Source: a virus. Taken from it: a DNA stretch of 35,470 bases. The stretch is taken from positions 1 through 35,470 of IMG/VR virus record IMGVR_UViG_3300005511_000517; one strand, written 5' to 3'. The notes under the pieces were generated by a model that was given only the letters and a program-made list of their open reading frames with translations, had not been told where the DNA came from and did not search any database. Position numbers and translations under genes: made by a program. Shown one piece after another: positions 2,788-33,954 of this stretch (the stretch's first letter is position 1; every line of letters starts with the position of its first letter).

Positions 2788-3534
2788 TTAAATTCCCTCG
2801 TCATTATCTGCTTCATACTCAATGCATTCACATCCCAGTGCCTGCCCACCGCATACTGGACAGCGCTCGACGTCGCAACTAGGTACGTGAAGTTCCCCTT
2901 TAATGGCGCCGCAATCATTGCAAGGCATGTCTCCAGGATCCCAACCGCCGTCTTCATCCCCATACCTTACTCGAGGAACACGGGCAACGTAATGAGTTAT
3001 TGACTGCGCGCGCTTCAATTTTTCAGGCCAGAAGCTGGCAACTTCCTGGCCTCGAAACTCAACAAGTTCTCCCTTCCATTTAAGTTCGCCAACATCGCTT
3101 GGATCAGTCTCTGGTCCAAACAACTTTTGGACAATTAGATGACTTAGCTCAGTTAACGAATGGTTTCGAAGGTCAATGTATCCCGTAGTCGCATTGAGAC
3201 CTGGAATTTCGGTATCGTCTAACCGAACGGGAAGAATGTACTCCTGGTTCTCCTTGAAGGCTCTAGCTTGAGCTTGCTTCAGTTCGTGCCGAGTCCAAAG
3301 CTTTTTTCTATACGCAGCAGAGACAAAAATGATGCAGTACTTGGCTCGATCCATGTATACGGACTGCAAGTGCTGATAAAGGTCTTTCCCCCAAAGATCC
3401 GCACGTTCGTAATCGTCATAGAACACATGTACCCCGAGTAAGCGCAGTATTTCTGCTAGCTCAGCGACGGTTTCTCGATCCTCGTTTGCGAACGAAAGCG
3501 CTACGTCGTATTTGAAGTCTGTGGCATCACTCAT
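2788..3534 (-). CDS. TIR-domain protein with C-terminal Cys-rich module
   Basis: Residues 8-140 form a TIR_2-type domain: [30 protein letters not shown] and [15 protein letters not shown]. The glutamate in the WTRHE segment (E84) sits where TIR NADases carry the catalytic Glu, so NAD+ cleavage or cyclisation is plausible. Residues about 145-195 are a linker ([20 protein letters not shown]). The C-terminus (200-240) holds paired cysteines, [13 protein letters not shown] and CEC, typical of a zinc-ribbon module, with an acidic tail. At 248 residues it is longer than simple ThsB-type TIRs because of this addition. It lies between another TIR gene (89 bases upstream) and a membrane-protein gene (59 bases downstream), all on the minus strand. 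Likely a defence sensor/signal enzyme; the trigger is unknown. Confidence 0.85.
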
Positions 3535-3623
3535 TGGATGAGATCTCGACCTATGTTAATCCTCAATTTGTAGAACACATTTATGCTAATGGAACCTATT
3601 ACTGTCAGTCGAAGACGAGGGCT

Positions 3624-4739
3624 TTATTCAGCAGGACGCCTTTTCATTAGCGCCGCGTTACCCCCATTGATTACCAGCGCTGCCCGCATGTCGTCGGTTT
3701 TAACAATTACGTCGCGAACGTTTCGTATGACGTGATCGCCAAGTCTATAACCGCGACCGGGCCACGCAGTTCCTGCCGGGCGGCCGACTACCAGTATCGG
3801 TTGGCAGCCATGTTTGCACGTGTAAATTGTTTCCCCTTCGTCTACCGATAGGTTGCTTTCAGAGAGCAGTTGCACGGTGCCACAAGCCGGACACTCGGTT
3901 TTCATGTTGCTGTCTTTTATGGCGGCTCCATCTTTGCCGATTCCTTGCTGAGCGAAGACATCCTCTACCTTGACCAAATCGTAAGAAATACCGTGTGCAT
4001 TGTTGTAGTCAAAGACTTTCTTAACAACTGATTCAACAATCATGTCATCTGAAATTTTTCGTTGATCCAAGAAGCCTACGGTGCATAAGATTCCGTCGAC
4101 CTGCGCGTCGTCGAGTCGCAACGGAAGGATGTACTCGCTGTTCTCTTGGAAGGCCCTAGCTTGCGCCGCTTTCCGTTCGTGGTTTGTCCACTGTTTTTTA
4201 GAATAATGTTCAGACACCAGCATCAAACAATACTTTGCTTCATCTTTGTAGACCTTTGAAAGATGGACATAAAGGTCCTTCCCCCAAAGATTTGCCTGTT
4301 CGTACTCATCGTAGAAAACCTTCAATCCCCTGAGAACAAGAAGCGACGCAAGACGCTCCGCTACGTTGCGGTCTTCGCCCGCAAACGAGATTGCGATGTC
4401 ATAAGTTGGCATGCCATCCTTTTTTGATGTGTGTGCTTCGCTCGAAAGAGGTTGTACTGGCTGCGGTGTTCGCTTCGCGCCGGCCTTCTTAAATTTGATC
4501 TGAAAATGCGCTGGCATTCCATGAAGGTCGTGGTAGAAAGATGCCTGCGTAACTTCGCTTCTTTCGTCCTTACCATTAGGCAGATGTCTCAGAATTGTAT
4601 CCTCTTCTTCTATGTCAGCAGTCGCATCCCAAACGACTATGGTGCCTCCAGCAATCGTGGCGTTGTACGGCCCTTTCAAAGTGCCATTTGCCTTTTCCAC
4701 TTGAATGTCTTCTTTCGGAAATACACTAAACGGGTTCAC
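3624..4739 (-). CDS. TIR-domain protein with N-terminal beta-rich domain and zinc ribbon
   Basis: A 371-residue protein starting at GTG 4739, chosen because GAGGAT lies seven bases upstream. Residues 1-87 form a beta-rich module (ILRHLPNGKDERSEVTQ and FYHDLHGMPAHFQIKFKK) of a kind I associate with the N-termini of other bacterial conflict proteins. Residues 111-245 are a TIR domain closely related to that of the neighbouring gene: YDIAISFAGEDR, VFYDEYEQANLWGKDLY and QWTNHERKAAQARAF, with putative catalytic E188. A C-terminal zinc-ribbon-like part has CPACG near residue 284 and CKHGC about 28 residues later. The N-terminal domain is absent from the other TIR protein, which suggests a sensor or targeting role here. 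NADase activity is inferred from the conserved Glu only. Confidence 0.85.
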   Translation of the reverse strand: MNPFSVFPKEDIQVEKANGTLKGPYNATIAGGTIVVWDATADIEEEDTILRHLPNGKDERSEVTQASFYHDLHGMPAHFQIKFKKAGAKRTPQPVQPLSSEAHTSKKDGMPTYDIAISFAGEDRNVAERLASLLVLRGLKVFYDEYEQANLWGKDLYVHLSKVYKDEAKYCLMLVSEHYSKKQWTNHERKAAQARAFQENSEYILPLRLDDAQVDGILCTVGFLDQRKISDDMIVESVVKKVFDYNNAHGISYDLVKVEDVFAQQGIGKDGAAIKDSNMKTECPACGTVQLLSESNLSVDEGETIYTCKHGCQPILVVGRPAGTAWPGRGYRLGDHVIRNVRDVIVKTDDMRAALVINGGNAALMKRRPAE

Positions 4740-20672: not shown

Positions 20673-22805
20673 ATGTCTAAGGGATCAGCTCCACCAGCAC
20701 CAGATTACACTGGTGCGGCGCAGGCTACTGCACAAGGTAACCTGCAAAACCTAAATCAACAGACTTGGGCAAATCGCCCGGATCAAAATACGCCGTGGGG
20801 CTCGTCAACTTGGACGAACAGTACTGACACGGCAGCGTACAACCAGGCGGTCAAGAACTGGCAAGCCAGCGGCGCAGACCCCAAGTCACGACCTGACGCC
20901 AACTCGTACACGACTTGGACAAACAACGTTACGCTGTCCCCACCCGAACAAAGTGCGCTGAACTCGCAACAGCAGATTCAACAGAATCAATCCTCGCTGG
21001 CGCAATCGTTGCAAGGTCAGGTAGCACACCAGATGCAGAACGGTTTTACCGCTCCATCGATCGATTCCTACACCAATGGTATTCCTAAAGTGAATGCCAA
21101 TTTTTCAGGATTCAACGCAAGCGGCGTTGGTGCGGTCGATCAAACCCGCTTTAATCCAGCCAACTATACCGGCGATTATCACGGTCTGAATCAAAGCTTT
21201 AGTTCAGCGGCGCAGCAAAATTCCAGCTTCAATGGTGGCCCTGCACAGAACACCGCATTTAACACCAATGCGCCTGGACTGAATACAAGCTTCAATAGCG
21301 GAACACCTTCGCTGAACAACACGTTCAGCAGCAACTCGCCTGCATTAAGTACCACATTCCAAAGCGATGCGCCTGCGATCAATACAAGCTTTCATAGCGG
21401 CGCTAATCCGGTCAATCAGGACTTCACCAGTCATGCCGGATCACTCGTCGGTTCAGCGGGAACTGCCCAGGTCAACACGAATCCGAACGCTTACACCAAC
21501 GGCGCGGGGAATGTCGATCTTAGTGCACCGCAGTTTAATCAAACGACTGCAGATGCGGGTGCGAAGGCGGCTTACAGTGCATCGACTGGATTACTTAATG
21601 ACCAGTGGGAGCAAGACAAGAGGAACCTAGACAATTCATTGCGCTTGCAAGGTCTAACTCCAGGCACGGAGGCCTACAACAACGCGATGCAAAACACCTT
21701 GCGAGTGCAGGCGCAGCAAAAAGACCAGCTCGCAAACCAGGCCGTTGTGACCGGAAATCAGCTCGCCAACAATAACTACGCTTCAGCGTTGGCAGGCTAT
21801 CAGGCACACAACTCGGCACAAGGTCAGGCCTTTGACCAAGGCATTAGAAGTCTCACCACTGAAAACCAGGCGTTAGGCCAGCAGTTCAGCCAGAACCTGT
21901 CAAATGCACAGCTGAATAATGCGTCAGCGGGCCAGCAATACGGCCAAGATTTGCAAGGCTTCAATGCCAATAACGCGGCGCAGCAACAGCATTACACGCA
22001 GGATGCCAACAGCTTTGGCATGACCAATGATGCGCGAAACCAGGCCTACGCAAATTCGCTGACTGGGTTCAACGCCAACAACGCAGCACGCGGCCAGCAA
22101 TTCAACCAAGACGCCACAGGCTTTAGCTTGACCAACGAAGCTCGCAATCAGGGCTACGCGAATGCTTTGAACGGTTACAACGCCACAAATAGCGCTCGAA
22201 ACACGCAGTTCAGCCAAGACCTTTCGGCTGCGAGCTTCAACAACACAGCTTCGAATACACAATTCCAGAACAACCTGTCTGCCTATAGCACTGTCAATGC
22301 AGCTAACAACACCCAGTATCAAAACGACCTTGCTAAATTCAACGCCAACAATGGCAGTTCAAGCCAAGCGCTGCAAAATGCGTTGTCACAGTATGGCGCA
22401 GCCTTGCAAGGTCAAAACTCCTACAACGCCGCTGCCGGTCAAGCTTACAACCAGGCGCTTGGCACATACGGTGCAAATCAGCAGGCGCAGCAAGATTCAA
22501 ACTCTGCGCAGTCGCAGGCTTACCAACAGGCGATGCAGCAGTATCAAACTGCTTACCAGAACGCATACCAGAACTATCTGCAACCACTTAACAGCATGAA
22601 TGCCGTCCTGACTGGTCAGCAGGTTGGAATGCCGCAGATGCCGAGCTTTACTGCTTCAGGTTATACGCCTGGATCGGATTACAGCGGTGCGGCAAGTGCA
22701 ACGGGCCAGTACAACTCTGGCCTTTACGCACAGAAGAATGCCAATGCCAGTTCGACAATGGGAACTGTAGGTTCGTTGGCAATGGCCGCGGCGATGGCGT
22801 ACTGA
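20673..22805 (+). CDS. large repetitive virion protein, putative DNA-ejection type
   Basis: ATG 20673 follows TTGAGGAAGGA; a TTG at 20655 is in frame but less likely. The protein has 710 residues and extreme Gln/Asn/Ala/Ser content. An N-terminal Trp/Pro-rich part (WANRPDQNTPWGSSTW) precedes Phe-rich units of about 10-11 residues (174-250, for example TSFNSGTPSLN and TTFQSDAPAIN). A helical segment DQWEQDKRNLDNSLRLQGL then PGTEAYNNAMQN matches a family often encoded near the tail genes of podoviruses. Residues 367-582 are twelve tandem 18-residue units. The C-terminus is Tyr/Gln-rich and ends in a hydrophobic SLAMAAAMAY. It probably travels in the virion and helps DNA ejection, as an internal or needle-like protein. 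This is inferred from family resemblance and position. Confidence 0.65.
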   Translation: MSKGSAPPAPDYTGAAQATAQGNLQNLNQQTWANRPDQNTPWGSSTWTNSTDTAAYNQAVKNWQASGADPKSRPDANSYTTWTNNVTLSPPEQSALNSQQQIQQNQSSLAQSLQGQVAHQMQNGFTAPSIDSYTNGIPKVNANFSGFNASGVGAVDQTRFNPANYTGDYHGLNQSFSSAAQQNSSFNGGPAQNTAFNTNAPGLNTSFNSGTPSLNNTFSSNSPALSTTFQSDAPAINTSFHSGANPVNQDFTSHAGSLVGSAGTAQVNTNPNAYTNGAGNVDLSAPQFNQTTADAGAKAAYSASTGLLNDQWEQDKRNLDNSLRLQGLTPGTEAYNNAMQNTLRVQAQQKDQLANQAVVTGNQLANNNYASALAGYQAHNSAQGQAFDQGIRSLTTENQALGQQFSQNLSNAQLNNASAGQQYGQDLQGFNANNAAQQQHYTQDANSFGMTNDARNQAYANSLTGFNANNAARGQQFNQDATGFSLTNEARNQGYANALNGYNATNSARNTQFSQDLSAASFNNTASNTQFQNNLSAYSTVNAANNTQYQNDLAKFNANNGSSSQALQNALSQYGAALQGQNSYNAAAGQAYNQALGTYGANQQAQQDSNSAQSQAYQQAMQQYQTAYQNAYQNYLQPLNSMNAVLTGQQVGMPQMPSFTASGYTPGSDYSGAASATGQYNSGLYAQKNANASSTMGTVGSLAMAAAMAY
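21771..22418 (+). repeat. twelve tandem 54-bp (18-residue) coding repeats
   Basis: Residues 367-582 of the ejection-type protein divide, without any gap, into twelve 18-residue units with the pattern [Q/T]-Q-[F/Y]-x-x-[D/N/A]-L-x-x-F/Y-x-x-x-N-x-A-x-x. Examples are QQFSQNLSNAQLNNASAG, QAYANSLTGFNANNAARG, QQFNQDATGFSLTNEARN and TQFSQDLSAASFNNTASN. The DNA is diverged between units, so the periodicity is maintained by protein selection. Confidence 0.85.
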
Positions 22806-23554
22806 TGATGACCTTTGATGACATCATTAGCCGCCATAACCACATTGCGCTTCAATTTAGCGGTGGTCGGGACAGCCTTGCGCTACTACTTGCGATGCGC
22901 CCTTATTGGGACCGCCTGACGGTCTATTTCACCGATAGCGGTGATGCCTATCCGGAGACGTTGGCATTAATCGACGCCGTTAAGTCTGTAGTTCCAACCT
23001 TCGTACAAATCGAAGGCCGGGTTAAACAGGTTCACGAAGAATTGGGCTGGCCTAGCGATGTACTACAACCAGGGGCAGGCTTCCAGTTCGCTAAGGAAGA
23101 CATTGACGGCTACGTGCCATTAATCGACCGTCACAACTGCTGCTACCAATCGATCATGCTGCCCATGCACGAACGCATGAAAGCAGATGGAATTACGTTA
23201 CTGATACGTGGTCAGCGCGACGAAGATACGACCAAGAGCCACGTTAAAAGCGGTCAGATAATCGACGGCGTTCAAATAGTGTTCCCGATCTCGCATTGGA
23301 CAACAGAACAAGTCGAAGGCTTCATTTCAAGTCAAGGCATGCCGCTTCCACCGTATTACGCAGAAGGCCTTTCATCTGCGCCCGATTGCATGCGTTGCAC
23401 CGCTTGGTTGGAGCATGGAGCCCATAAATACCTGATGAAACACCATCCGAGCGTCGCGTCCGAAGTGAACGAACGCTTGAAGAAGATAAGAATAGTCGTT
23501 GAGCCATTCGTCAAGCGTCTCAACGAAGTACAGGAGACATTGAATGGCAAATAA
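22805..23554 (+). CDS. PAPS/APS-reductase-like N-type ATP pyrophosphatase
   Basis: A 249-residue protein of the adenine-nucleotide alpha-hydrolase fold. The PP-loop is FSGGRDS (18-24). FTDSGDAYPET (42-52) is the usual second strand, and RGQRDEDTTKS (135-145) is the substrate-side loop. It has Cys112-Cys113 and Cys195-x2-Cys198, with 81 residues between the two pairs, the spacing of the iron-sulphur ligands of assimilatory APS reductases. It lacks the C-terminal ECG(L/I)H motif that carries the catalytic cysteine in those enzymes, so a simple sulphate-reduction role is doubtful. Related phage proteins are common and some relatives act in DNA or tRNA thiolation. ATG 22805 overlaps the previous stop; ATG 22808 is equally possible. 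The next gene overlaps its 3' end by 11 bases. Confidence 0.85.
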   Translation: MMTFDDIISRHNHIALQFSGGRDSLALLLAMRPYWDRLTVYFTDSGDAYPETLALIDAVKSVVPTFVQIEGRVKQVHEELGWPSDVLQPGAGFQFAKEDIDGYVPLIDRHNCCYQSIMLPMHERMKADGITLLIRGQRDEDTTKSHVKSGQIIDGVQIVFPISHWTTEQVEGFISSQGMPLPPYYAEGLSSAPDCMRCTAWLEHGAHKYLMKHHPSVASEVNERLKKIRIVVEPFVKRLNEVQETLNGK

Positions 23555-27711: not shown

Positions 27712-30498
27712 ATGTCTTACAACGGCTCGGGCACGTACGTGCCGCCAGCAGGCCAGCCAGTTGCAACTGGTACGGTTATACAGTCGGCCACGTTTAATAC
27801 CCTGGTTACTGACATCGGCAATACGTTCAATAATGTTCTGCCACGTGACGGCCAAGCACCAATGCAAGGCCAGCTAAAGATCTCAGACGGCACCTGCTCA
27901 ATACCTGGCATTGCCTTTAACAGCGAAGCATCGAGCGGCATCTTCCGTCCTTCAACGGGTGTCTTGGCATTATCGGTATCCGGTGTTGAAGGCCTGCGCA
28001 TCAACAGCGCTGGGCGCATGATGCTCGGCACGACAGCCGACGATGGTACCAGCAGGCTTCAAGTCAATGGCACAGCAAAGATTACAGGGGCGACCACAGT
28101 TGGCAGTACGCTTGGCGTCACAGGTGCGGTAACTGCGCCTTCGTTCAACGGCCCATTGACAGGCAACGTGACCGGCAATGTAACGGGCAATGTATCGGGT
28201 ACTGCGGCAAACATTACTGGCGTCGCTATTGCGGCCAACGGCGGTACAGGCATAGCCAGTTATGCGATTGGCGACATCCTTTACGCGAACGGCACGACGT
28301 CACTGACCAAGCTTCCAGGTAACACCACCACTACCAGAAAGTTCTTTGCCGAGACCGGCAACGGATCAGTGACGAACATCGTGGAATGGACAGCGCTTGC
28401 GGCGACGGACATCCCCAGCCTTGACTGGTCAAAGATCACCACAAATAAGCCGACAACGCGAGACGGTTACGGCATCACCGATGTCTACCTGAAAACCGAA
28501 GATGATGCACTATTAGCGACCAAGGAAGCGACTGCCAACAAGAACACCTCGAACGGCTATGTTGGCCTGTCTGGCGGCAAGATCGTATTTCGTAATTTGG
28601 GCCAGACATTCACCAGCTTTATGCAAAACGCTGCCACGGCGGCGCGTAACTACACCTTCCAGGATCGCGACGGCACCATCGCTGACTTGACAGACCTTGG
28701 CACAAAGGCAGCCAAGGGTGCCAATAGCGACATTACTTCGCTGTCTGGCCTAACCACGGCACTAAGCATTGCGCAAGGCGGCACAGGAGCAGTGGATGCG
28801 CAAGGCGCTCGTCTTAACTTCTTTGTGCCCACGCGCGCAGCGTTCGTCACAGGAAATGACTGCTCCGTGCGGTCGGAAACGACCAGCCTGCGCACTGTTG
28901 CAAACCCGTCGACAGGTTTGGGGTACGGCCAGGGCTTGCGTGTACGCTTCGCTTGCACGGATGATGCCACAACGGCGTCGTATTCCGATGTGATCGACCT
29001 ATCGACCTATGCTGACCTGTCAGGTGGTGGATACAATTCGCTGTACTTCAACAAGGCCTTGCAGCAGATACAGCACAAGTTTGGTGCCGCTGGTGCTACT
29101 GCCTGGACTGCGAAAACACTGGCTTACTTGGAAGGTCCGACCTTCGTCAACGATACGTTTTTTAAGGGTACGTCAACGCTCGCCAACGCGTCGGCATTCG
29201 TTCGTGTGACAGATACCACCACGGATTTCTATGCTTCGAGTTCCTCCGGCGTAACCAAGACCCTTAACTTCCACGCAGACGGCAATGCGGGATCAATCCT
29301 GTCTCTCAATTCAACCACAGCCACCGTTACCGGGAGTACAGCAATCACTTCCAAGCTGTCCGTTGGCGCGTCGATGACACCCGATACCCGTATAGGCGTG
29401 TTGTCGAACTCGGACGCGACAAATTCCGGTGACGGCATTTCGTTCTACGGTTCGGCGGCGAACAAGCAAGCGTCAATTCTTAGCTGGAACACCGGGAATT
29501 TTAGCGGCGACCTGCGTTTCAACGTCTCACAAAAAGCATCTGCCAGTACAACGACAACCACTGAAGCAATGCGGCTGACAAGTCGCGGTGCAGCCCTATT
29601 CGGGACCACGACCGACGATGGTACTAGCCTGGTTCAGGTCAATGGCAATACCAGTACCGCATACCTGACGGTTGGTAAGGCAACCGCACAAGCTGGCGGC
29701 AACGGTCAGGTCAAGTTTTACAAAGACACAGGCGCGCTGGCGTGGGCGGCTGGAGTTGATGGATCGGCGGGCGGTACCAACTGGATACTGTATGACATGG
29801 TGGGTAGTGCAACCCGATTGGCAGCTGCGCCTGATGGTACGCTGACTTCCTATGTTGGCGGCAACCAGCGACTCCAAGTTACATCGGGTGGCGTGACCGT
29901 AACCGGTTCTGCGAGTGCGAGCAACGGCTTAACTGTGACTGGTGCGGCAACGAACATCTTGGGAGGTGTCGCAGCCACTTTAGCTAATGCTGGCTTCATG
30001 CAGATTGGTGGAGCGGCAGGCATGAACGTAGTGTATGACTACAATCAAATCCAGGCCCGTAATAACGGAGCTGCTGGCCAGTTGAACCTAAATGCTAATG
30101 GCGGGCTCGTCACAATCGGGTCAGGAGGGTTATCGTCATCTGGTGATGTATGGGCATCCGGCAACGTCACAGCTTATTCGGACGAACGCCTTAAGACCAA
30201 CTGGCGTGATGTCGCGGATGACTTTGTTGAAAAGCTGTCCGCAGTAAGGCATGGCGTGTACGACCGCATCGACACTAAACAAACGCAGGTCGGCCTTTCA
30301 GCACAATCGGTCCAGGCATTCATGCCGGAAGCAGTGGCGACTTCCACTGAAGGCATGCTGTCCTTGAACTACGGCGCGGTTGGTGCAATCGCGGCAGTCA
30401 AGCTAGCTAGAGAAATGCTTTCTTTGAGACAGGAAATCACCAAGGCGAAGAAGACCATAGCGCGTCTGGTGAAATTCATGGGAGGTAGCAAAGCATGA
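27712..30498 (+). CDS. tail fibre/spike with S74 intramolecular chaperone
   Basis: A 928-residue beta-rich fibre. The N-terminus (MSYNGSGTYVPPAGQPVATG) is the usual virion-attachment opening of phage fibres. The body contains TGNVTGNVTGNVSGT and IAQGGTGAVDAQGARLN-type segments. Two related motifs occur at about 103-120 (MMLGTTADDGTSRLQVNG) and 628-648 (ALFGTTTDDGTSLVQVNG), a likely shaft repeat. The C-terminal 106 residues are an S74 peptidase/chaperone: AYSDERLKTNWRDV with Ser823, Asp824 and Lys828, then GLSAQSVQAFMPEAV and a terminal helix. S74 domains trimerise the fibre and then cut themselves off near the Ser-Asp, so the mature fibre should have about 822 residues. It binds the host receptor. 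Confidence 0.9.
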   Translation: MSYNGSGTYVPPAGQPVATGTVIQSATFNTLVTDIGNTFNNVLPRDGQAPMQGQLKISDGTCSIPGIAFNSEASSGIFRPSTGVLALSVSGVEGLRINSAGRMMLGTTADDGTSRLQVNGTAKITGATTVGSTLGVTGAVTAPSFNGPLTGNVTGNVTGNVSGTAANITGVAIAANGGTGIASYAIGDILYANGTTSLTKLPGNTTTTRKFFAETGNGSVTNIVEWTALAATDIPSLDWSKITTNKPTTRDGYGITDVYLKTEDDALLATKEATANKNTSNGYVGLSGGKIVFRNLGQTFTSFMQNAATAARNYTFQDRDGTIADLTDLGTKAAKGANSDITSLSGLTTALSIAQGGTGAVDAQGARLNFFVPTRAAFVTGNDCSVRSETTSLRTVANPSTGLGYGQGLRVRFACTDDATTASYSDVIDLSTYADLSGGGYNSLYFNKALQQIQHKFGAAGATAWTAKTLAYLEGPTFVNDTFFKGTSTLANASAFVRVTDTTTDFYASSSSGVTKTLNFHADGNAGSILSLNSTTATVTGSTAITSKLSVGASMTPDTRIGVLSNSDATNSGDGISFYGSAANKQASILSWNTGNFSGDLRFNVSQKASASTTTTTEAMRLTSRGAALFGTTTDDGTSLVQVNGNTSTAYLTVGKATAQAGGNGQVKFYKDTGALAWAAGVDGSAGGTNWILYDMVGSATRLAAAPDGTLTSYVGGNQRLQVTSGGVTVTGSASASNGLTVTGAATNILGGVAATLANAGFMQIGGAAGMNVVYDYNQIQARNNGAAGQLNLNANGGLVTIGSGGLSSSGDVWASGNVTAYSDERLKTNWRDVADDFVEKLSAVRHGVYDRIDTKQTQVGLSAQSVQAFMPEAVATSTEGMLSLNYGAVGAIAAVKLAREMLSLRQEITKAKKTIARLVKFMGGSKA

Positions 30499-30977
30499 CG
30501 CTACCAGCAAGCGGCCAAATCGACATGAGCCAGGTCAACGTGGAATTGAGTCGGTCTTCCAATGCCGCGATCTCATTAGGTGATTCAGCGGTGCGAGCCC
30601 TGGCTGGCGTGGCGTCAGGTGCAATCAACCTGAATACGCTGCATGGCAAGTCGAATTACGCGCCCATGACAGTAACCAAGTACGATGACAGCGAATCCTA
30701 TTCGAGCTTTGGCAGCGGTGGCACCGCGTATGCCACCCCATCCGTAAGTGTTTCTGGCGGATCAGGTGGCTTTACCTATACTTGGAGCTTTACCAGCAAC
30801 CCGCAAAACACGTCGCTCACTAACGCAAACGCGTACCAGTGCACAGTGTCAAAGAACTACGCCAAGAGTTCGAACGGTTCATTTTCTGCCGTCCTTCAAT
30901 GCATCGTGCAAGACAATACCGGCCATTCGGTGACGGTCACCAACATCAACGCAAGCGCTGACTGGACTAACACGTAA
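30495..30977 (+). CDS. small fibre/adhesin-like tail protein, 160 aa
   Basis: ATG 30495 overlaps the fibre stop (ATGA). The first 50 residues (LPASGQIDMSQVNVELSRSS and DSAVRALAGVASGAINLNTL, then HGKSN) form a module I recognise from many phage tail proteins, usually as an attachment domain before a variable tip. Residues about 60-155 are Ser/Gly/Thr-rich with SVSGGSGGFTYTWSF and VLQCIVQDNTGHSVTVTN, the pattern of an Ig-like or PKD-type beta-sandwich. I infer an accessory adhesin mounted beside the main fibre. The two cysteines could form a disulphide within the domain. Confidence 0.7.
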   Translation: MTLPASGQIDMSQVNVELSRSSNAAISLGDSAVRALAGVASGAINLNTLHGKSNYAPMTVTKYDDSESYSSFGSGGTAYATPSVSVSGGSGGFTYTWSFTSNPQNTSLTNANAYQCTVSKNYAKSSNGSFSAVLQCIVQDNTGHSVTVTNINASADWTNT

Positions 30978-31468: not shown

Positions 31469-31532
31469 ATGTATGCAGCGTATGAGGTTGCCAAGGTTTC
31501 CCCTGTGTTTGCCATTCGGCGGACACTGAAAG

Positions 31533-31566
31533 AACCCACGTGCTCATACCGCGTGGGTTTTTTCTT
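31533..31566 (+). terminator. rho-independent terminator closing the late operon
   Basis: AACCCACG (31533-31540), 11-base loop, CGTGGGTT (31552-31559), continuing into TTTTTCTTTG. The eight-base perfect stem with a T-run ends late transcription after the holin-like gene. Confidence 0.85.
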
Positions 31567-32701: not shown

Positions 32702-33376
32702 ATGACTCAGCCTGAACACATGGATACCACTGCCCCACAACTGCAAGCGCCGGCTGTTACTGCAAACGCGGAGCAAGCGACCATCAAACAAGCCTACTTG
32801 CTGGCACAGTCCGATGAACTTCTCGGTCACCTGTGCAAACACATTTTTGAAGCAGGTCACGCGACAAAGGCATTGCATAAGACGGATTCACTTCAAGCTG
32901 CGCGCTTAGCCGTTGAGCAGATCATGGCGCGCATCGATGAACAGATCAAAGCCGCTAACGCAGGAAAGTTGGCGGAAGAGTTGGATGAGTTGAACGCATT
33001 GGCTAAGAAGCATGGATACAAGGACTGGGATGCGATGGCTACGAGTCATGGCTTGCTTGGAAATGACAAGCCAAACATCGAGCAACCAAAACCATCGAAT
33101 ACACGACATCAGCAGCCTGCTGAACCATACGACCGATTGCTTAAAGACGAGTACACCGGCACTAACTCGCCTGACTTCAGCCAGGGCTACTACATGCGTC
33201 ATGGTATCCGTCCACAAGCTGGCTGGGTTAAGAAATTTGAAAACGTGAACGGCCGCGCTCCCGCTGAAAATGACTTCCGTGATCCGACTGATGATGAAAA
33301 GAACGCTATGCGAAAAGCAAACGAGGAGGCATTCAACAGTATCAAGCGCCGGAGGCCTCGCGCAAAAAAGCAGTAG
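32702..33376 (+). CDS. unknown protein, 224 aa, zero-frame product of a frameshift pair
   Basis: ATG 32702 follows AAAAGGATTTGT; an upstream in-frame ATG at 32612 lies in the leader hairpin and is rejected. The protein is helical in its first two-thirds (QATIKQAYLLAQSDELLGHL, then LAEELDELNALAKKHGYKDW). A later aromatic part GYYMRHGIRPQAGWVKKFEN is followed by a charged helix DPTDDEKNAMRKANEEAF and the basic end SIKRRRPRAKKQ. The stop at 33374-33376 lies six bases from a slippery A_AAA_AAG in the correct phase, so a fraction of ribosomes should continue into the next frame and yield a 417-residue fusion. No family is recognised. It is close to the structured RNA region, which may or may not be related. 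Confidence 0.75.
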   Translation: MTQPEHMDTTAPQLQAPAVTANAEQATIKQAYLLAQSDELLGHLCKHIFEAGHATKALHKTDSLQAARLAVEQIMARIDEQIKAANAGKLAEELDELNALAKKHGYKDWDAMATSHGLLGNDKPNIEQPKPSNTRHQQPAEPYDRLLKDEYTGTNSPDFSQGYYMRHGIRPQAGWVKKFENVNGRAPAENDFRDPTDDEKNAMRKANEEAFNSIKRRRPRAKKQ

Positions 33377-33410
33377 GTCCGGCCTTGTGGGGCTCCCCAC
33401 AAGTACGGAC
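33351..33410 (+). promoter_or_regulatory. programmed -1 ribosomal frameshift signal (dnaX-like)
   Basis: Four elements in order: internal Shine-Dalgarno GGAGG (33351-33355); eight bases later the slippery heptamer A_AAA_AAG (33364-33370), in the X_XXY_YYZ phase of the upstream gene; a six-base spacer CAGTAG containing the stop; then a hairpin starting at 33377. The lower stem is GTCCG/CGGAC (33377-33381 and 33406-33410); the upper stem is CTTGTGGG/CCCACAAG (33384-33391 and 33396-33403), with loop GCTC and a two-by-two internal loop. This is the arrangement of the E. coli dnaX frameshift site. After slipping, decoding continues GCA GTA GGT CCG GCC TTG into the downstream frame. Confidence 0.8.
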
Positions 33411-33954
33411 GCAAGCGAATGCAGAAGTCGCAGAAGCGAAAAACATCAGCCCAAAAGGTTGGCATGAGAAGGCATCTCGCGCTTTCCTCAAGTTATTGCA
33501 GCGCAATCAAATCCATCGCGTGCTTACTATTAAACGAGATTGCATGCCAAAGATGTTTGGGGCGTTGACACCCTGGAGCGGCAAACCCGAGGACATGATC
33601 GGAATAGTAGTCCAAGGCGGTGTAATGCACTTCTATCAGCTGTTGAAATACGTGAATAAGGAAGATGGGAACCAGACTCCCGTAGTGGATCTCGATGAAG
33701 TCCGCAATGTCAACTTTTCCCGCGACAGCCCTGAAGGCTTGCATCAAGACGCTATCGATGCAGTCCGTAAGGTAGCGTGGGCAAAACAGTACAAGACTTT
33801 GTTCGAAATGGACTCAAACGGCTTTGAGGAGTTGCTGCCATCTAAAGGGAAAAAGTGGAAAGCGGTCATTACGACCACGACTGCCGATGGGAACATTTTG
33901 TTCCATGAGATGACTGATCATGTACCGCAGGTTCAATTACCGAATTCGGAATAG
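33385..33954 (+). CDS. downstream frame expressed by -1 frameshifting, 189 aa
   Basis: The frame is open from the slippery site at 33370 to the stop at 33952-33954. As an independent gene it would need TTG 33385, with no good ribosome binding site and inside a stable hairpin, so expression as a C-terminal extension is more likely. The encoded part (NISPKGWHEKASRAFLKLLQ, then RNQIHRVLTIKRDCMPKMFG, later MIGIVVQGGVMHFYQLLKYV) looks like a folded alpha/beta domain followed by a beta-rich end (KAVITTTTADGNILFHEM). No family is recognised and no transposase motif is visible, so this is not an IS-type frameshift that I can identify. The coordinates are those of the recognisable frame; the fusion would run 32702-33954. 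Confidence 0.7.
   Translation: MWGSPQVRTQANAEVAEAKNISPKGWHEKASRAFLKLLQRNQIHRVLTIKRDCMPKMFGALTPWSGKPEDMIGIVVQGGVMHFYQLLKYVNKEDGNQTPVVDLDEVRNVNFSRDSPEGLHQDAIDAVRKVAWAKQYKTLFEMDSNGFEELLPSKGKKWKAVITTTTADGNILFHEMTDHVPQVQLPNSE

Follow-up and report, generated by a model that had tools for sequence, protein, structure and literature searches.

The window, by which we mean the whole stretch of DNA that was analysed, is a 35,470-base IMG/VR virus record (designated G000) from a tailed soil phage. Its late operon (8948-30977, + strand) includes terminase, portal, major head, tail and lysis proteins, as recognised with PHROGs. The major head protein shows 49-50% identity to Stenotrophomonas phage BUCT555 and Myxococcus phages Mx8 and Mx9, and with it as query 33 related loci were gathered from metagenomes. 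A gene inside the tail/virion part of the operon (22805-23554), with 73-81% identity in relatives, carries an SGGRDS motif that we take to resemble that of PAPS-reductase/ATP-pyrophosphatase enzymes; this possible enzyme sits among virion genes. Near the left end, two neighbouring TIR_2-domain genes (2788-4739, − strand; Pfam E 2e-19 and 9e-16) match the candidate defence profiles PDC-S66 and ThsB-like and are a probable phage-borne TIR defence or counter-defence, while a nitroreductase-domain fragment (1-363, − strand) that runs off the end of the window may represent either phage cargo or host DNA from a prophage boundary. The last virion gene occupies 30495-30977, and the two ORFs that are the subject of this work lie 1.7 kb past its end. 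The features of this region are as follows.

31528-31564, + strand: terminator-like hairpin (consensus match only; the number of such hairpins found is about that in shuffled sequence)
32702-33376, + strand: ORF1, 0 frame, 224 amino acids, from ATG 32702 (preceded by AGGA) to a TAG
33351-33355, + strand: Shine-Dalgarno (SD)-like GGAGG, candidate stimulator, 8 nt 5′ of the slippery heptamer
33364-33370, + strand: slippery heptamer A_AAA_AAG, in phase with ORF1
33374-33376, + strand: 0-frame stop codon TAG, one codon past the heptamer
33377-33410, + strand: candidate stimulatory hairpin of 13 bp, after a 6-nt spacer
33370-33954, + strand: ORF2, −1 frame, 194 amino acids, open for 194 codons and reached by a −1 slip
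33430-33651, + strand: ORF2 domain, copy 1 (profile i-E 4.3e-4)
33730-33921, + strand: ORF2 domain, copy 2 (profile i-E 2.3e-4)

ORF1 ends in GCA AAA AAG CAG TAG. The anti-SD duplex of the GGAGG upstream, calculated at −9.5 kcal/mol, is in the top 2% among ORF1 positions. The hairpin consists of 5 bp, a 2x2 internal loop and 8 bp; folded alone it reaches −24.1 kcal/mol (z −4.56), none of 200 shuffled sequences was equally stable, and among 35,434 segments of 36 nt on the + strand the one that holds it ranks first in stability. When longer upstream sequence is included in the fold a competing structure appears and z drops to −1.7, with the 8-bp upper stem retained. A −1 slip would produce an ORF1-ORF2 fusion of 417 amino acids with the predicted junction ...RAKKAVGPAL..., encoded across KKAVGPALWGSPQVR. 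ORF2 has no ATG in the window before 33544, a position that falls inside the first domain copy, and the sole earlier start noted is TTG 33385, which lies within the hairpin and has no SD. The first-pass annotation had described an in-phase A_AAA_AAG preceded by GGAGG at eight bases, a six-base spacer, an interrupted hairpin and a −1 frame lacking a credible start of its own, with products of 224 and 417 residues; all of these elements were found where it had placed them.

How often such a site arises by chance was assessed in a control set of 553 kb of related contigs, considering ORFs of at least 80 codons. The heptamer was found in phase 20 times, in seven cases within four codons of the stop. 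Four of these seven belong to the gene family described here and open into −1 ORFs 103-194 codons long; the remaining three (two distinct) lead into −1 frames of 9-13 codons. In the virion genes of the window (14 genes, 6495 codons) the heptamer is never in phase, and lysine pairs are encoded by AAG AAG in 9 of 13 cases and by AAA AAG in 2. On the other hand, a −1 ORF of at least 100 codons follows the stop of 46 of the 184 large ORFs. Since long −1 ORFs are common in these compact genomes, the −1 frame by itself would prove little, and the weight is on the combination of elements and on their conservation. All related loci were scanned for sites of the form X_XXY_YYZ, with A or T as Y, at which an ORF end leads into a −1 ORF extending at least 60 codons past the stop; A_AAA_AAG was recovered solely at this gene, in the window and in three relatives. 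Chance or sequencing error is a very unlikely source of the cassette.

The cassette-bearing proteins are too diverged for detection by single-sequence scans, and synteny was used instead: the region past the last virion gene was read in seven longer relatives, and G020 has the ORF pair there. Three related contigs representing two lineages have an equivalent two-ORF gene: G020 (IMGVR 3300028588_000055), and the close relatives G023 (3300028588_000058) and G029 (3300031088_000394). With the window, the sample in which conservation of the cassette was judged comprises four contigs of three lineages. In all three relatives ORF1 has the identical ending GCA AAA AAG xxx TAR, with the one-codon stop spacing kept throughout; an SD-like stretch precedes the heptamer, and the −1 ORF is long. 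The G020 ORF1 ends in GCA AAA AAG ACG TAA; GAGGGAGG lies 10 nt upstream of its heptamer (anti-SD duplex −11.4 kcal/mol), and a hairpin with an 11-bp perfect outer stem begins 6 nt downstream (−21.9 kcal/mol, z −4.98). G023 and G029 end in GCA AAA AAG CCG TAA followed by a 103-codon −1 ORF, and their SD-like pairing is weaker (−5.9 kcal/mol). A simple downstream hairpin was not found in these two contigs, which may form a three-way junction. Its outer stem, CGAUGGGC/GCCCGUCG, would start exactly 6 nt after the heptamer, and the statistics of the junction are weak (z −1.1 to −2.0). The first-pass annotation had proposed a search for homologues that keep the heptamer together with the hairpin, and G020 is one; in G023/G029 the heptamer is kept, the simple hairpin is not, and the ORF2 is unrelated. 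Its reading of the locus as a programmed frameshift is supported by the conserved ORF1 ending and −1 ORF.

A profile that combined the ORF2 of G020 with the C-terminal halves of proteins of two further relatives, G015 and G016, leaving the window out, found the window ORF2 with E=1.5e-11 as two tandem copies, the next unrelated match having E=2.2. The domain is a tandem duplication in the window phage and a single copy in the relatives. In G015 and G016 it is the C-terminal half of a single uninterrupted protein (40% identity over 137 residues between the G020 ORF2 and the G016 protein), the N-terminal half of which is different. Homologues with one unbroken gene, for which the first-pass annotation had proposed to look, were found in these two relatives, where the ORF2 domain is joined to this different N-terminal half. 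Comparison of the G023 and G029 ORF2 (312 nt) showed five differences, all of them at third positions of the −1 frame and four of them synonymous, and therefore this frame appears to be translated. With an hhalign probability of 0.1%, the G023 ORF2 shows no link to the ORF2 domain of the others. ORF2 encodes a real protein in all three lineages, on evidence that differs among them; it was predicted, with low confidence, to form a small alpha-beta domain.

ORF1 has a basic C-terminal end (...RRRPRAKKQ), and its low-confidence model shows long helices at residues 21-103, in the N-terminal half, and then a linker. A resemblance to H-NS (helices, linker, small basic C-terminal part) was considered and discarded, as neither profiles nor searches of solved structures gave it support. 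The ORF1 proteins of G020 and G023/G029 are clearly homologous. The Smith-Waterman score of the window ORF1 with that of G020 is 88 (shuffled 37.3, sd 6.0; 0 of 2000 as high) and the local alignment score with that of G023 is 61 (shuffled 35.9; 7 of 2000 as high). BLASTP (E 1e-4) points in the same direction, as does hhalign, though weakly (E 5e-4, probability 31%), while a G020/G023 ORF1 profile did not find the window ORF1 with HMMER at E<=10. These comparisons support a distant homology of the window ORF1 to those of the relatives; taken apart from the common location and cassette, they would not be overwhelming.

Single-sequence searches with both halves found nothing in Pfam, NCBIfam, PHROGs, phages or viral_contigs, nor did a search of plasmids and genome_contigs with ORF2. 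Neither half matched a polymerase, a transposase or any other family in these profile searches, as the first-pass annotation had anticipated, and none of the defence-system profiles matches ORF1 or ORF2. Bacterial genomes around Pandoraea, searched in sets of 300, 399 and 369, yielded a single match, at the level of chance. A weak match of P0004 to phrog_824 (5e-5) was rejected because the strongest match of that profile in these sequences is in a superfamily-2 helicase-like ORF. The AlphaFold models of the halves were poor (pLDDT 53 and 49) and the Foldseek results meaningless. Within the reach of these searches, both the gene family and the history of its modules appear to be new.

The terminator-like hairpin at 31528-31564 would set the ORF pair apart from the late operon. 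A related integrase is found near the equivalent gene in G020, G023/G029 and G015/G016 (within the window itself this integrase has no match), and in G015/G016 additional cargo such as a histidine kinase adjoins the gene. Therefore the favoured view is that the gene encodes an accessory (moron) protein, of which a second form bears the ORF2 domain. The kinase genes (G015, L036:3414-4544; G016, L039:7480-8634, − strand) lie near the phage integrase, encode HisKA and HATPase_c domains with an RsbRD_N-like N-terminus, and are 86% identical between both phages. A further gene group, p1013/p1511/n428, has one orientation in the window, G015, G020 and G021; in G023 (L042/L043) and G029 (L044/L045) it has the opposite one and is found close to the other end of the contig, a rearrangement near the integrase region.

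The alternative that survives best, although improbable, is that ORF1 and ORF2 are separate genes, the second being translated by termination-reinitiation (translational coupling), and that the A-run represents codons of a lysine-rich tail. An ATG is found 2-8 nt past the ORF1 stop in G020 (TAA+8+ATG) and in G023/G029 (TAACGATG), unrelated ORFs of these contigs likewise end in A_AAA_AAG lysine tails, and a prediction of frameshift genes can pick up coupled pairs (PMC3711429). However, the window has no ATG near the stop, and the two starts mentioned above, in the hairpin and inside the domain, are poor candidates. An evident SD for ORF2 is present in none of the three lineages, and the strong hairpin directly past the stop would hinder reinitiation. 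The lysine-tail explanation also has to account for GCA AAA AAG in all three lineages despite the preference of the virion genes for AAG AAG, and for an ORF2 domain that is the C-terminal part of a fusion in other relatives. Reinitiation is possible as a side route to ORF2 in the relatives and unlikely in the window.

There is very little chance that one gene has been split by a sequencing or assembly error or by a recent frameshift mutation. The break falls at a run of six A, and in G015/G016 the ORF2 domain and an N-terminal half are continuous; yet the same break and heptamer recur in independent contigs of two other lineages, the different N-terminal half of the unbroken relatives indicates that they are not the mended form, and an SD and a hairpin flank the break site. 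This explanation, of which the first-pass annotation had named the sequencing error as a possible objection, is largely refuted. It is just as hard to credit that the frame is changed by RNA polymerase slippage rather than by ribosomes: A-runs can cause it, as in the Thermus dnaX, but here a G ends the run after six A and the cited bacterial cases have nine A or T (PMC5009743), the SD and hairpin stimulators are ribosomal features, and the phase of A_AAA_AAG is exact in all contigs.

The elements of the cassette and their conservation are thus most readily understood if programmed −1 ribosomal frameshifting lets this accessory gene of the phage yield two proteins, a reading that the comparative sequence evidence makes highly probable. 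Ribosomes translating ORF1 would pause at A_AAA_AAG, held by pairing of the upstream GGAGG with 16S rRNA and by the resistance of the hairpin to unwinding, and the pair of tRNA-Lys would re-pair one base back. Those that do not slip would stop one codon further on and release the 224-amino-acid protein, whereas those that slip, at whatever frequency this may occur, would read ORF2 and produce the 417-amino-acid fusion.

What the two forms do can be proposed only tentatively. The ORF1 protein would be helical and probably self-associating, and the fusion might place a limited number of ORF2 domains on ORF1 assemblies, a display that can be likened to those of lambda gpG/gpGT and T7 10A/10B, with the difference that the window gene encodes an accessory protein and not a virion assembly factor. 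It is also conceivable, with a similar degree of doubt, that ORF1 plus the cassette constitute a portable adapter with an exchangeable −1 payload, in a modular accessory family with a role in defence, exclusion or lysogeny. The reason for considering such an adapter is that the ORF1 base and GCA AAA AAG are kept while ORF2 differs between lineages: one domain serves as payload in the window (duplicated) and in G020, and an unrelated 103-amino-acid ORF2 in G023/G029. In G015/G016 the same payload seems to sit on a different base, to which it is fused directly. If true, this would represent a frameshift-regulated accessory protein family outside virion assembly. The presence of a conserved and complete dnaX-type cassette in an accessory gene suggests that phages also employ frameshifting to set the ratio of two forms of a non-virion protein, and it offers a testable case, with a short natural cassette of predicted high efficiency and relatives that attach the same domain by ordinary fusion.

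Among the programmed frameshifts of phages, those that are well studied mostly belong to tail and capsid genes. Candidate −1 frameshifts were few among prophage clusters in one survey (5 of 69; PMC4066793), and among the frameshifted genes annotated by SEA-PHAGES 2397 of 2476 are tail-assembly chaperones, the rest being hypothetical (PMC10885494). As it is the case for lambda G/GT and T7/T3 gene 10, a −1 slip near the gene end would append a C-terminal domain to part of the product; those genes, unlike the one described here, are virion genes in the late operon, and no relation of ORF1 or ORF2 to them was detected. The lambda-type G/GT chaperone is flanked by the genes for the major tail protein and the tape measure, and a tail-assembly chaperone was rejected for the window gene, which is beyond the last virion gene and has no PHROG match. 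Its position past the late operon, in an accessory region, therefore indicates that it is not the usual phage frameshift gene.

IS3-family OrfA/OrfAB, including IS911, share the −1 slip, an A-rich heptamer and a downstream structure. Their domains are an HTH in OrfA and an rve integrase core in OrfB; an OrfAB transposase was dismissed, as no homologue has a Pfam or NCBIfam match and an insertion-sequence context was not seen. The IS911 stimulator is a three-way junction (PMC5009743), and G023/G029 may have a similar one.

The closest likeness of mechanism is to E. coli dnaX (tau/gamma), and the decoding is very probably of this known kind, a conserved programmed −1 frameshift of dnaX type. There is no homology to DnaX (DNA polymerase III tau/gamma) by Pfam, NCBIfam or PHROG match. 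The E. coli site (NC_000913.3) consists of AGGGAG, 10 nt, A_AAA_AAG, 5 nt and an ACCGGC stem, and GCAAAAAAG is invariant in five sequences: the window, G020, G023, G029 and E. coli dnaX. The window gene and E. coli dnaX further share SD-like purines 8-10 nt upstream and a hairpin 5-6 nt downstream. Of the elements that define a dnaX-type signal, the heptamer is present in all four contigs, as is the SD-like element, expected some 8-14 nt upstream and weaker in G023/G029; the stable hairpin, expected some 5-8 nt downstream, is evident in the window (z −4.6) and G020 (z −5.0), in both at 6 nt, and not clear in G023/G029. In E. coli A_AAA_AAG has been described as far more slippery than other heptamers (PMC5009743). 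In both systems one of the two products terminates one codon past the site; in the window, in contrast to E. coli dnaX, the short product comes from the 0 frame and the long one from the slip. This reversed arrangement, with the 0-frame stop directly after the site, has been reported for some bacterial dnaX genes (PMC5009743), and it is the arrangement found in the window.
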